Source: a virus
DNA: 23,012 bases
Virus record (IMG/VR): IMGVR_UViG_3300046804_003221
Coordinates: 1-23,012 of that record
Strand: one strand, 5' to 3'
Every line of letters begins with the position of its first letter. The stretch's first letter is position 1. The notes beneath the pieces are model-generated. The model worked only from the letters and a program-made list of their open reading frames with translations, had not been told where the DNA came from and did no database searches. The position numbers were made by a program, and so were the translations under genes. Of the stretch, positions 13,226 to 22,345 are shown piece by piece.

Positions 13226-14451
13226 ATGCAAGTTAAAGAACTCAACCACCCAAAATCAAGCAAAGCTCTCAATGAGAGCGTGGCTAGAAAATTCGGATAC
13301 AAGCTAAACTTAGATAGTTTTAGCTTAGAACAACTGCAGACTTCTAGAGATAAACTAGCTAGTCAGCTTGCTGCTTTTGAAACTAGCCGCACATATGATG
13401 CTGTTTATGAAAGCAATGATTACCAAAAGAATCGTGCATTGTTAGATGTTATTACACAGGCAATTGCAGAGCGTAAACTAAGCCCAGGCGAAGAAAAAAA
13501 GAAAGAAAAGTTTGTAAAAGGCATGAAGAAAGTCAAAGGCGACTTTAGCAAGCGTTATGGCGAAAAAGGCGAACAAGTAATGCATGCCACAGCCACTAAG
13601 ATGGCTAAGGCAAAGGATGTAAAAGAGGCAATGTCAATCCTGCGCTCTGCTCTAAATGAGAGAACACTTACAGAAGGCGAAGAAGAAAAGGCAGCTCTAA
13701 TCATGAGTGCCCGTGATATGGTTGATAAGATCACTGGCTGGTTAGAAGACACAGCTTCTCTAAAATCAGAGACGTTGTTAGAACTCGTAGACTCTATAAG
13801 AGATGAGCTAGGCTCACAAGTATCAGCACAATTTAGCGGCAAAGTAAAACCAGCACTAGAAGAATTATATACAAGTTTAGAAACACAACGTACAGCCCTT
13901 GCACAAGCCGTTGCTGTACTAACAGGCGAAGAAGCTCCAGGCATGGGAGGCGAATCAGCAGGCGAAGCACCACCAGAACTGGGTGCAGACCAAATGCCCA
14001 CAGGCGATCAATTCGCGGCAGCTGAAGCTGGCGCCGGCGGAACAGAAGAAGCTGGCCGTGCTAAACGTGAAAGCGTAGAGTATAGCCGCAAGCTAGGCCA
14101 AATTTTAAGTTCAAAAAAAAAGTAACTGAAGATGCGGATACACTAATCCGCATCCTTCTACAACTGCAATCAAGAGCAAACTCACGTGGCGTGCCAGCGC
14201 AATTTAGCTGGGACGCCATTTCTAATATGTTACAGAACGTTTCTGGAGTTCAAATGGACTACGAAACATTCAAAGCAGAATTTGATGCTATTCCCCAACT
14301 AAAGAATATTGTACAGCAATTTGATGGTCGCGGCGTCACTCTAAAGACCAAAGAAAAACCAGAAGCTACTCAAGGCGAACCAAAAGACAAAGGCGGCATC
14401 GATGCCGCAGCCAAAAGAGCCGCTGGCAAAACTCTTCAACAACCAGGTTGA
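13226..14451 (+). CDS. Conserved phage protein made in short (299 aa) and -1 frameshifted long (408 aa) forms
   Basis: Frame zero encodes 299 residues and stops at 14125 right after three lysines (SSKKK). Frame -1 is open at that point and runs to 14451, adding 109 residues (VTEDADTLIRILLQLQSR, then FSWDAISNMLQNVSG, then MDYETFKAEFD with PQLKNIVQQFDGRGV). The join lies at A-AAA-AAG (14116-14122), with 14122 read twice. The added part has no Shine-Dalgarno or ATG of its own; only a GTG at 14191 exists. The frame-zero part is helical and charged, with KGDFSKRYGEKGEQVMHATA and ITGWLEDTASLKSETLLEL, and several L-x-E/(S/G/R) sites including LNE/S at 15-18. These would suit a head-core or packaged protein cleaved by a gp21-type protease. 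Function is unknown. A sequencing error in the A9 run would also join the frames but would not explain the hairpin. Confidence 0.75.
14113..14154 (+). promoter_or_regulatory. Programmed -1 ribosomal frameshift signal
   Basis: Nine A then G (14113-14122) give the heptamer A AAA AAG in the correct zero-frame phase, the same slippery site as E. coli dnaX. A stop codon follows at once. After an 8-nt spacer (14123-14130) comes a perfect 9-bp hairpin: GATGCGGAT (14131-14139), loop ACACTA, ATCCGCATC (14146-14154). There is no T-run, so it is not a terminator. No well-placed upstream Shine-Dalgarno stimulator was seen. Confidence 0.75.
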
Positions 14452-17514: not shown

Positions 17515-19866
17515 ATGCAAAATATCACAGTCATTAAGAGAAACGGACACAAAGAAACACTAACTATTGAAAAATGGCAAGCCCAAGTGGCTAAAGTTTG
17601 TAAGGGCATAGCAGATGTAAGTCAATCGATGATTGAAATAAAGAGCCAACCGCATTTCTATGACGGTATTACAACTAAAGAAATTGATGGAATTACTCTT
17701 CGTGCTATTGTTGATCTAATTGACGTGGAGTCTAATCCAGATATAGGGCACACAAACTATCAATATGTAGCAGGTAAGCAACGATTAAGTATGCTACGTA
17801 AAGATGTGTATGGCACCTACGATCCTCCTAGTCTTTTAGATATTGTTAAGAAAAATATTTCAGTTGGGCTTTATACTCCCGAGCTACTTGAGTGGTATAC
17901 TGAAGATGACTGGAATAAGATGAATGACATTATCGATCATTCAAAAGATGAAGAATACAGTTATGCGGCTATTGAGCAATTGATTGAAAAATATCTTGTA
18001 AAAAATAGAAGTACAGGTGAAATATATGAGACTCCACAAGTACGTTATTTGGTGGCAGCTGCCACGGTGTTTCATAAAGAAGAGCCTAACACAACTCGTA
18101 TGCGCTACATAAAGGAATATTATAATGCAGCTTCTGACGGTCTATTTACTCTCGCTACTCCTGTTCTTGCTGGGCTTGGGACTCCCACTAAGCAGTTCAG
18201 TAGTTGTGTACTCATTCGCAGTGATGATGATCTTGACTCCATTTTTGCTTCTGGAGAAATGATGGCCAAGTATGCCAGCAAACGTGCCGGCATTGGTTTA
18301 GAAATAGGACGTCTACGTCCATTAGGATCTCCCATTCGTGGCGGCGAAATCATGCATACTGGCATGATTCCTTTTTTAAAGAAGTGGTTCGGTGACCTAC
18401 GCTCATGCTCACAAGGTGGTATTAGAAACGCTAGTGCTACAGTCTTTTATCCTATTTGGCATTATCAGTTTGACGATCTTATTGTCCTTAAGAACAATCA
18501 AGGAACTGAAGAAACTCGCGTTAGACACATGGACTACGGAGTGGTACTATCAGCATTCTTTTGGCGTCGTTTCAAAAATAAAGAAAACATTACGTTTTTT
18601 GATCCTAATCAAGTGCCTGATCTCTACGAAGCTTTCTACAAAGACACCGACCTATTTGAACAACTATATGTCAAATATGAGAAGCAGGCCGGCATTCGTA
18701 AGAAGTCAATGAGTGCTGAAGAAGTATTCAAAGGTGGAATACTAAAGGAAAGAACCGATACAGGACGTATATACCTTGTGTTCATCGATAATGTTATGGA
18801 CCAAGGGCCATTTGACCCTGAATGGCATACAATTTATCAAAGTAATTTATGCTGTGAAATACTATTACCTACTCGATCATTTAAGCGTCTTGATGACGAT
18901 GCTGGCAGGATTGCTCTATGTACGTTGGGCAGTATTAACTGGGGAGCATTCCGTAATCCAGAAGATATGCGCCGGGCTTGCCGCATTCTACAGCGTAGTC
19001 TATGTAACATTCTTGATTACCAAGACTTTCTAAGTATACAAAGTAAACTTAGTAACGATGAAATACAACCACTAGGAATTGGTGTAACTAATCTTGCCTA
19101 TTGGCACGCCAAGCGTGGACACAAGTATGGCGAGAAAGATGCACTACAAGAAGTTAAACAATGGATGGAACACCAAGCCTACTATCTCACAGAAGCTACA
19201 GTAGAACTTGCCAAGGAAAGAGGCAAGTGTCTAGACAGCGATAAAACATGGTACGGTCGGGGGATTTTTCCCTGGGAACGTCGCGCCAAAGGGGTCAACG
19301 AACTCGCCGATTTTACACCAGAACTTGATTGGGAACCTTTAAGAAAGGAAATGAAAGAATATGGAGTTAGAAATGCTACCCTTATGGCTATTGCTCCTGT
19401 GGAGTCAAGCTCTGTGGTTATTAATAGTACCAATGGAATTGAACTTCCAATGTCGCTTATATCAACAAAGGAATCAAAGGCTGGAAGTTTTACACAAGTA
19501 GTTCCTGAATATCATAAGTTAAAAAACAAATATCAATTGATGTGGGAGCAAAGAGACTGCGATGGTTATCTTAGAACAGCTGCTATTTTGGCTGCTTACG
19601 TTGATCAAAGTATTAGTACTAATACTTTTTATAATCCTGCTCATTTCGCAGACAGGAAGGTACCTACTACACTAATAGCAAAAAATCTAATGCAGGCGCA
19701 TTCTTGGGGTATTAAGACCTTTTACTACAGTTTAATTAATAAACAAGGTAGTAAAGTTATTGACGAACCAAAGCTGGAACTTAACGGACATAATGGCCAT
19801 AACGGCTATAACGGTTTTCACTTTGAAGAGCTTGATCAAGACGATTGTGAGGCCTGTAAGCTATGA
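17515..19866 (+). CDS. nrdA: Class Ia ribonucleoside-diphosphate reductase, alpha (catalytic) subunit
   Basis: A 783-residue NrdA that reduces ribonucleoside diphosphates to deoxy forms for phage DNA synthesis. An N-terminal ATP-cone is present (VIKRNGHKETLTIEKW, from residue 6). Active-site residues align with E. coli at a constant offset of about 6-7: C231 (SSC), N444, C446 and E448 (SNLCCEI), C469 (ALCTL), and the radical-transfer tyrosines Y737-Y738 (TFYY). All catalytic residues are intact, so allosteric and catalytic function is expected. Two odd points are that the C-terminal redox tail is C-E-A-C (C778, C781), a CxxC rather than the E. coli CxxxxC, and that it is joined by a linker of repeated N-G-(H/Y) units at 757-767. 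The stop overlaps the superoxide dismutase start by 4 nt (ATGA). Confidence 0.97.
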   Translation: MQNITVIKRNGHKETLTIEKWQAQVAKVCKGIADVSQSMIEIKSQPHFYDGITTKEIDGITLRAIVDLIDVESNPDIGHTNYQYVAGKQRLSMLRKDVYGTYDPPSLLDIVKKNISVGLYTPELLEWYTEDDWNKMNDIIDHSKDEEYSYAAIEQLIEKYLVKNRSTGEIYETPQVRYLVAAATVFHKEEPNTTRMRYIKEYYNAASDGLFTLATPVLAGLGTPTKQFSSCVLIRSDDDLDSIFASGEMMAKYASKRAGIGLEIGRLRPLGSPIRGGEIMHTGMIPFLKKWFGDLRSCSQGGIRNASATVFYPIWHYQFDDLIVLKNNQGTEETRVRHMDYGVVLSAFFWRRFKNKENITFFDPNQVPDLYEAFYKDTDLFEQLYVKYEKQAGIRKKSMSAEEVFKGGILKERTDTGRIYLVFIDNVMDQGPFDPEWHTIYQSNLCCEILLPTRSFKRLDDDAGRIALCTLGSINWGAFRNPEDMRRACRILQRSLCNILDYQDFLSIQSKLSNDEIQPLGIGVTNLAYWHAKRGHKYGEKDALQEVKQWMEHQAYYLTEATVELAKERGKCLDSDKTWYGRGIFPWERRAKGVNELADFTPELDWEPLRKEMKEYGVRNATLMAIAPVESSSVVINSTNGIELPMSLISTKESKAGSFTQVVPEYHKLKNKYQLMWEQRDCDGYLRTAAILAAYVDQSISTNTFYNPAHFADRKVPTTLIAKNLMQAHSWGIKTFYYSLINKQGSKVIDEPKLELNGHNGHNGYNGFHFEELDQDDCEACKL
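19783..19815 (+). repeat. N-G-H/Y tandem repeat in the NrdA C-terminal linker
   Basis: Encodes NGHNGHNGYNG as 9-nt units (AAC GGN CAT type), just before the acidic stretch and the redox CxxC tail. It is a flexible swinging linker by position. Confidence 0.7.
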
Positions 19867-20417
19867 CGTTTGGTTTTATCAAGTATGTATTGGCAGAAGA
19901 GATTAGGCCGATCAAATTAAAGATTGATGCACTTCCATATAGCACTACAGCCCTGGCTCCTGTTATTTCGAAACAGACTATTGACTATCACTATGAACAT
20001 CTTGCTAAAACATACGCAAAACGTTATAATGCCGGAGAAGGTGATCCAGACTTTAATCAAGCAGGCGTATTCCTACACAATATATTGTTTGCTCAGTATC
20101 GATCACCCAAGGATGCTAATAATCCAACGGGCAAGATAAAAGATTTTATTGAAAAGCATTTTGATACATTTGCTAAATTTAAAGATGAATTCACCAAAGA
20201 AGCAATGGCTATACAAGGTAGTGGTTGGGTGTATTTGAGTAAGAGTGGCAAGATTAAAACCATAAAGAATCACGAAATTAAAAGAGACATAGTATTATTA
20301 ATAGACTGGTGGGAACACGCTTGGGCGTTAGACTACCAATGGGACAAAAAAGAATACCTAAACAATCAATGGCGTATAATAAATTGGGATCATATAAATG
20401 AGTCGAGCACAATATAA
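19863..20417 (+). CDS. sod: Fe/Mn-family superoxide dismutase embedded in the RNR operon
   Basis: A 184-residue protein aligning along its length with Fe/Mn superoxide dismutases, which turn superoxide into O2 and H2O2. N-terminal part: LPYSTTALAPVISKQTIDYH, with metal ligand H43 and gateway Y51. The second ligand is H72 (VFLHNILF). C-terminal part: GSGWVYLSKSGKIKTIKNHE, then LLIDWWEHAWALDY with ligands D148 and H152, and YLNNQWRIINWDHINE. All four metal ligands are kept. The Fe-type active-site Gln is Gly here (G68) and the Mn-type Gln position is probably His137, as in some Fe or cambialistic enzymes. About 15 extra N-terminal residues precede the fold; no signal peptide is evident. It overlaps nrdA by 4 nt and nrdB by 20 nt, so all three are coupled. 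Active enzyme is likely; metal choice is uncertain. Confidence 0.9.
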   Translation: MTFGFIKYVLAEEIRPIKLKIDALPYSTTALAPVISKQTIDYHYEHLAKTYAKRYNAGEGDPDFNQAGVFLHNILFAQYRSPKDANNPTGKIKDFIEKHFDTFAKFKDEFTKEAMAIQGSGWVYLSKSGKIKTIKNHEIKRDIVLLIDWWEHAWALDYQWDKKEYLNNQWRIINWDHINESSTI

Positions 20418-21735: not shown

Positions 21736-22040
21736 TGTTATTTGAAAAGAAATATGGTGACGGTGATGTGGTCACACTAAAACTATCATCCGGTGAGGAA
21801 GTATTAGGGAAATTTGTAGCTGAAGACATGATGAGCATAACTCTAAGCAAATGTCTTATGATTGCTATGACAGCCAAGGGCCCGGCCATGGCACCAATTT
21901 TAATGACTGTTGATCCTGATAAAGACCTTACTTTTAATAAAAATAATATAACTGTGATTTCTATATCAGATAAAGAAATTGCCGCACAGTATACAACTCA
22001 AACAACTGGAATCGCTATTCCTAAGGGAAGTATGGTATAA
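21735..22040 (+). CDS. Sm-like small conserved phage protein
   Basis: A 101-residue protein. The first half reads VVTLKLSSGEEVLGKFVAED, then MMSITLSKCLMIAM: a strand-turn-strand pattern resembling the opening of Sm/LSm barrels (an L-x-G-E-x-V-x-G-K element), followed by further strands (PILMTVDPDKDLTF, NNITVISISD) and QTTGI. LSm-like small barrels in phages are often RNA-binding or oligomeric, but no RNA-binding residues can be identified. The TAATG overlap with the glutaredoxin stop and with the following PAAR start means it is translated from the same mRNA. The fold call is by eye and moderate; the function is unknown. Confidence 0.7.
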   Translation: MLFEKKYGDGDVVTLKLSSGEEVLGKFVAEDMMSITLSKCLMIAMTAKGPAMAPILMTVDPDKDLTFNKNNITVISISDKEIAAQYTTQTTGIAIPKGSMV

Positions 22041-22345
22041 TGCCTGCAGTAGCTAGACAAGGTGATCCAACATCAACAGGACACGGCTGTGATGGTACAA
22101 CGACCATCACAGGTCCTACCGGTGCCAGCGCCAAAGTTTATGCTAATAATATACCTGTAGAGTGTCAAGGTAACCCTACAGTAGTTCACAGATACGGCGG
22201 AAAGAACTGTTCCGCCCAACATGCCGCTTCAATTAATGTAGGATCGGGCAATGTATTTGTAGCCAATACTCCTTTAGCCAGAGTTGGCGATTCAACCGAC
22301 GGCGGCGCAATTACGGGCGGTAGTCCAAACGTCTTTGCCAATTAA
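22040..22345 (+). CDS. PAAR-domain spike-tip protein
   Basis: A 101-residue PAAR protein, the pointed tip that caps the central tail spike (T4 gp5.4 type) and helps pierce the outer membrane. It starts MPAVARQGDPTSTGHG and ends with PLARVGDSTDGGAITGGSPN, the two halves of the PAAR repeat, with many Gly and small residues forming short strands. Candidate zinc ligands are H15, H50, C57 and H61, three His and one Cys, as is typical of the family. It has no extension or toxin domain. It is unusual in lying with RNR/redox genes rather than in the baseplate cluster in this window, and overlaps the Sm-like gene by 1 nt. Confidence 0.93.
   Translation: MPAVARQGDPTSTGHGCDGTTTITGPTGASAKVYANNIPVECQGNPTVVHRYGGKNCSAQHAASINVGSGNVFVANTPLARVGDSTDGGAITGGSPNVFAN

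Follow-up and report, generated by a model that had tools for sequence, protein, structure and literature searches.

How does a gene that stops directly behind a run of nine adenines come to be followed, one base back in frame, by a further 109 open codons? The gene begins at position 13226 of the window, which is the 23,012-base stretch of IMG/VR virus record IMGVR_UViG_3300046804_003221 analysed here and belongs to a large uncultured water phage. The reading that we favour, at a probability of roughly 85%, is that the gene would be decoded in two ways by ribosomal −1 slippage aided by a hairpin, giving products of 299 and 408 amino acids. The features concerned are the following.

13226–14125, plus strand: 0-frame gene for a 299-residue protein
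14113–14121, plus strand: A9 slippery run, with overlapping heptamers A_AAA_AAA (14113–14119) and A_AAA_AAG (14116–14122)
14122–14451, plus strand: −1-frame extension, 109 codons and a TGA stop, residues Val300 to Gly408 of the long form
14123–14125, plus strand: 0-frame stop TAA, end of the 299-residue form
14123–14130, plus strand: 8 nt spacer TAACTGAA from the slippery site to the stem (5 nt to the extended stem)
14131–14154, plus strand: putative stimulatory hairpin, a perfect 9 bp stem with a 6 nt loop
14482–15168, plus strand: phage exonuclease gene, given for context

Two reading frames at one junction

The 0-frame codons at 14111–14125 read TCA AAA AAA AAG TAA, and both heptamers have the X_XXY_YYZ form of −1 ribosomal frameshift sites in the 0 frame. 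In E. coli, A_AAA_AAG ranks among the −1 motifs with the highest efficiency (PMC4066793). The preliminary description had proposed a −1 frameshift cassette at 14113–14154, and it is correct in every detail: the A9 run, the stop, the 8 nt spacer, the hairpin of 9 bp with a 6 nt loop and the 109-codon −1 frame. The A9 run by itself is unremarkable, with 0.7–0.9 expected per strand of the window at its composition. Chance is excluded instead by the exact conservation of the run together with the covariation in the hairpin and the coding character of the −1 frame.

The 299-residue protein is predicted by AlphaFold2 to be all-helical, with a pLDDT of 70 and a pTM of 0.35, which makes the model too uncertain for fold searching. 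Its residues 116–237 match the virion structural protein family phrog_14154 (E = 1.1e-08, partial coverage only), as do 23 of 28 family members, and its profile matches EST35_0237 of Pseudomonas phage PA5oct (hhalign E = 1.8e-08). On these sequence matches the helical protein is probably a virion component. Pfam matches (NIBRIN_BRCT_II and others) were rejected as they fell under the curated cut-offs.

The −1 frame runs from GTA (14122–14124) through TGA at 14449–14451 and adds 109 residues after the Ser-Lys-Lys-Lys of the first protein. The extension can be aligned across all members of the family. Most of its variation falls at third positions, and stops are frequent in the other two frames, with a mean of 6 to 12. 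Median dN/dS, taken over all within-clade and hence non-independent pairs, is 0.48 for the freshwater and 0.15 for the marine clade; the upstream gene has 0.20 and 0.24, respectively. Judged by this pattern of substitution, the −1 frame is coding and under purifying selection. In one relative (L045, at about 6379) it ends at 68 codons inside a short A run where sister sequences go on, which is probably a local indel or assembly error.

AlphaFold2 predicts a compact extension (core pLDDT of about 90, pTM of 0.58). Its fold matches in the PDB are mostly winged helices, the best with an E-value of only 0.06, and the extension is modelled as a small domain, possibly a winged helix. Together, these matches and folds suggest what the gene products and the added domain might do: act in the virion or in contact with DNA.

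Conservation of the slip site

A search of viral contigs with the 299-residue protein gave 80 loci, to which further searches with other members added. The first set comprised 61 distinct junctions and the later one 98; the tree has 98 rows, 97 contigs and PA5oct. Of these rows 64 are of the frameshift type, the window included, and 34 are of a split type (33 contigs and PA5oct). Every locus with an A run that reaches the junction has a run of A8–A10 with a 0-frame stop no more than 4 nt away; its −1 frame is open, and its +1 frame closes within 4–20 codons. At all 61 distinct junctions A8–A10 is in slip phase and the −1 frame is 68–158 codons long.

Of the 64 frameshift rows, 58 have a run of A9, five of A10 and one of A8, and the stop, 0–4 nt past the run, is TAA in 52, TAG in six and TGA in six. 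In-frame A_AAA_AAA is present in all 64 and is the constant heptamer. A_AAA_AAG, named by the preliminary description as the slip site, is there in the window and in 53 rows altogether; four members end in AAC and the others in AAA or AGA. In 63 of the 64 the run begins within a TCA, GGA or CCA codon, although across these loci TCA accounts for only 51% and GGA for 29% of the codons in their respective families. With the run, the stop and the −1 frame in all 64 members, and a hairpin that covaries in the clade of the window, the comparison of sequences bears out a programmed −1 change joining two frames: the recoding event is real and conserved. Standard gene callers would cut such proteins short and overlook the tail domain.

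Sequencing and assembly errors typically fall in homopolymers, and a tenth A would here put both halves in one frame, so that the junction could in principle be an artefact or a broken gene. The comparative data already contradict this: the 61 distinct junctions come from many samples and agree with one another, selection acts on the −1 frame and the two arms of the stem covary. The earlier concern that the true run is A8 or A10 is answered in the same way. A9 is found consistently in independent contigs, and in the few A10 and A8 variants the stop lies in the matching phase, which still demands a −1 shift. An error is therefore the least credible of the explanations weighed here, and we give it next to no weight.

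In a collection of 50,697 phage records no close relative was found by DNA or by tblastn with the two halves from the window, nor with two marine queries. A query from clade 3 picked up PA5oct and cyanophage proteins, through short domains only. The frameshift gene is also found in L131 (PBPT01000016.1, 335 kb) and L132 (PALK01000009.1), the bins of the two being Neomarinimicrobiota and Rickettsiales MAGs. Both are probably phage contigs, and the bins are possibly a hint of their hosts.

The hairpin and the agent of slippage

The arms of the stem, GATGCGGAT (14131–14139) and ATCCGCATC (14146–14154), enclose the loop ACACTA, and folding lengthens the stem to 12 bp with one bulged base (14128–14158). 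The fold energy of the region is −17.4 kcal/mol compared with −4.7 ± 2.2 kcal/mol for shuffled sequences (z = −5.8; none of 200 shuffles is as low). In 31 distinct sequences of the freshwater clade 95.3% of the stem cells are paired, as against 32–46% when one side is slid, a comparison that is somewhat favourable to the unslid pairing since the stem was defined from the window. This bias does not explain the double-sided, compensatory changes seen at six of the nine pairs, for example GATGTCGAC with GTCGACAT (L034), GTGAGGACC with GGTTCTCAC (L040) and GCACGGAT with ATCCGTGC (L005). None of 500 shuffles reaches the covariation score of the stem.

The hairpin is weak or absent in L001/L002, L014, L029 and L030. 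More generally, structure 5–9 nt downstream is shared by the window and the greater part of its clade and is absent in the marine members, where a search for a conserved stimulator with RNAalifold gave just a 4 bp helix with no double changes, which was not accepted. An Rfam search returned chance-level matches only and no frameshift element. The alignment of homologs thus upholds the A run and the stop as conserved parts of the cassette, whereas the hairpin is lacking in the marine and a few freshwater relatives.

In the mechanism that we propose for the window, most ribosomes would terminate at the TAA at 14123 and release the 299-residue helical protein. The hairpin at 14128–14158 would slow the ribosomes, and a fraction of them would slip one base back on A_AAA_AAA/A_AAA_AAG and translate 109 more codons, giving the 408-residue form with its extra small domain. 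Tethered in this way to the first protein, the tail domain would enter the virion, or take part in its assembly, in smaller amounts than that protein. Ribosomal slippage is favoured here because a covarying hairpin 5–8 nt downstream acts on ribosomes but is not yet transcribed when the polymerase is at the run.

Two observations do not sit well with a purely ribosomal reading. A9 is kept although a ribosomal heptamer needs only A6–A7, and the marine members and L001/L002 keep the run without a conserved hairpin. The alternative is transcriptional slippage, in which the polymerase inserts an extra A at the A9 run and the resulting A10 mRNAs are read through, either as the sole process or alongside slippage by the ribosome. 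Across 0.8 Mb of non-redundant loci there are 63 runs of at least nine A at the junction and three elsewhere, where 60 would be expected under independence. Outside the junction, runs up to A7 are not depleted, A8 is at 0.38 of expectation and A9 is at 0 compared with about 30 expected. Avoidance of A7 in these genomes is indifferent to reading phase, and that of long A runs tracks their length. We had considered a phase-specific avoidance of heptamers as support for ribosomal slippage and dropped it, as the A7 data do not discriminate. The retention of A9 (also in L029, despite a changed codon phase), its absence elsewhere and the phase-independent avoidance of A7 fit slippage by a polymerase or during replication.

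On the other hand, transcriptional slippage leaves a covarying hairpin at ribosomal spacing unexplained, and the six A10 and A8 members still have A_AAA_AAA in frame. We regard it as a minority explanation for the window, although it is the chief rival or partner of ribosomal slippage. Both slippage processes may occur at one site (PMC5009743), and both may operate here. For the marine members neither mechanism is preferred, and transcriptional slippage could be the main route in this clade devoid of the hairpin.

Two-gene relatives and the gene neighbourhood

In 33 contigs (L070, L071, L073–L075 and 28 more) the extension is encoded downstream as a gene in its own right. The start codon of this gene lies at most about 12 nt from where the first gene stops, and its product begins MKLLE, MRVSD, MRLFE or similar. 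The separate gene, as found in relatives of clade 3, is homologous to the −1-frame extension by hmmsearch (E-values down to 4.5e-18, Z = 1000) and by hhalign (98.9%, E = 1.5e-17). The same outcome would be reached in these relatives with two separate, closely spaced genes. The preliminary description had expected the two halves to be fused in other phages. None of the 98 junctions is a single-frame fusion, so that a continuous frame that dispenses with the A run, which would speak against programmed slippage, is not found either; the alternative arrangement is two adjacent genes.

The slip site occupies the position of the downstream start codon in the split relatives (MK[LI]xE compared with KK[VLI]xE). 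In the marine L242 the S-K-K-K ending is retained but spelled TCA AAG AAG AAG, which is non-slippery, and is followed by TAA GGATTAGAC ATG. The split junctions are tightly coupled (TAATATG, TAATG, ATGA), and overlaps are also found among frameshift members, TAATG in seven and GTGA in six. In L198, L205, L206, L209, L247 and L250 (marine; AAAAAAAAAGTGA) the stop TGA overlaps a −1-frame GTG (AAG TGA). From its sequence, this overlap is a possible bridge between coupled genes and slip site.

These overlaps and the tight coupling in the split relatives are what a plain two-gene overlap would predict, with the extension translated on its own by termination–reinitiation. This arrangement gives the hairpin and the A9 run no role, and neither the window nor 40 further members offer a start codon within the opening ∼20 codons of the −1 frame. 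The earliest possible start in the window is the GTG at 14191, which falls inside the conserved domain, in agreement with the earlier remark that the −1 frame lacks start signals of its own. An independent start was rejected since none is conserved among the frameshift members, and we consider a two-gene overlap in the window very unlikely.

The tree of the first gene requires three changes between the arrangements, and well supported branches make two of these unavoidable; a marine split group (L200, L237, L240, L242 and L244) is nested among frameshift members. This is a quick tree with long branches and an uncertain root, and the direction of change can accordingly be put forward only tentatively. 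We give even odds to a broader reading, in which the frameshift and two-gene forms would be interchangeable ways to make one pair of virion proteins. The site would have been gained or lost at least two times, in-frame fusion would never be tolerated as the free short protein is required, both kinds of slippage would possibly be used and the hairpin would be an addition of the freshwater clade.

The exonuclease gene follows the junction in both types, in 61 of 61 frameshift loci and in 31 of the 32 split loci whose sequence extends far enough. In the window the neighbours of the frameshift gene are this exonuclease, a tail spike gene and nrdA; no adjoining tape measure gene was recognized. Gene order is the same in the jumbo phage PA5oct (Arenbergviridae), namely the counterpart of the first gene, a tail-domain gene, exonuclease, a tail gene, a small gene and nrdA. 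The exonuclease is 42% identical to EST35_0240 and nrdA is 43% identical to that of PA5oct. EST35_0238, of 104 amino acids, has the right place and size for the counterpart of the extension and ranks top among 43 ORFs by profile, with a weak E-value of 0.009 that is not significant alone. Both EST35_0237 and EST35_0238 are annotated as 'structural protein, ESI-MS/MS' in the PA5oct record. Unlike in the window, they are two separate genes (TAA/GTG) without an A run.

Elsewhere in the window, positions 1–1350 hold a partial gene that matches phage DNA polymerase families (phrog_405 and others) and looks like a bacterial-type replicative α subunit. By sequence alone, 19863–20417 is a superoxide dismutase-like auxiliary gene between nrdA and nrdB. 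A PAAR-repeat protein (phrog_281), of the kind found on contractile tail tips, is encoded at 22040–22345.

Comparison with known recoding systems

What is new here is the gene family, for a known kind of recoding. Family-wide recoding is seen in large freshwater and marine phages, apart from the usual tail chaperone or capsid cases, and the alternation between a frameshift-joined and a two-gene form is an unusual natural one. With L242 encoding the same peptide in different codons, this contrast offers a way to ask why a phage would tether one virion protein to another at a fixed ratio, and by what route coupled genes give rise to frameshift sites.

In dnaX, an A_AAA_AAG site is followed by a hairpin 5–8 nt downstream, an upstream Shine–Dalgarno-like stimulator assists and the −1 shift gives the shorter product (tau/gamma). 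The likeness to E. coli dnaX drawn in the preliminary description is apt for the slip site and the downstream hairpin, both of which are present in the window. It does not extend to the outcome, as the shift here would lengthen the product from 299 to 408 residues, and the gene encodes a phage structural-type protein and not a clamp-loader subunit. By eye, no Shine–Dalgarno-like stimulator is seen at the right distance upstream of the slip site in the window.

The outcome resembles that of gag-pol, IS3-type orfAB and λ G–GT, where a −1 shift likewise leads to the longer product. The G/GT genes are located before the tape measure gene, whereas the gene in the window precedes an exonuclease and a tail gene. 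In the frameshifts of T3/T7 gene 10, Lactobacillus phage A2 and Listeria phage PSA, the protein concerned is a subunit of the capsid or the tail, and its extension is often Ig-like. In λ G/GT, as would be the case in the window, a −1 shift in a tailed-phage gene adds a C-terminal domain, there to an abundant protein (PMC5009743). G/GT is absent from virions (PMC5009743), in contrast to the PA5oct counterparts of the two halves, which are annotated as virion proteins by mass spectrometry. Frameshifted virion proteins with a C-terminal extension are made by T3/T7 gene 10, A2 and PSA (PMC5009743), and the gene in the window differs from these in belonging to another protein family, in adding another domain and in having relatives that encode the same pair as two genes.
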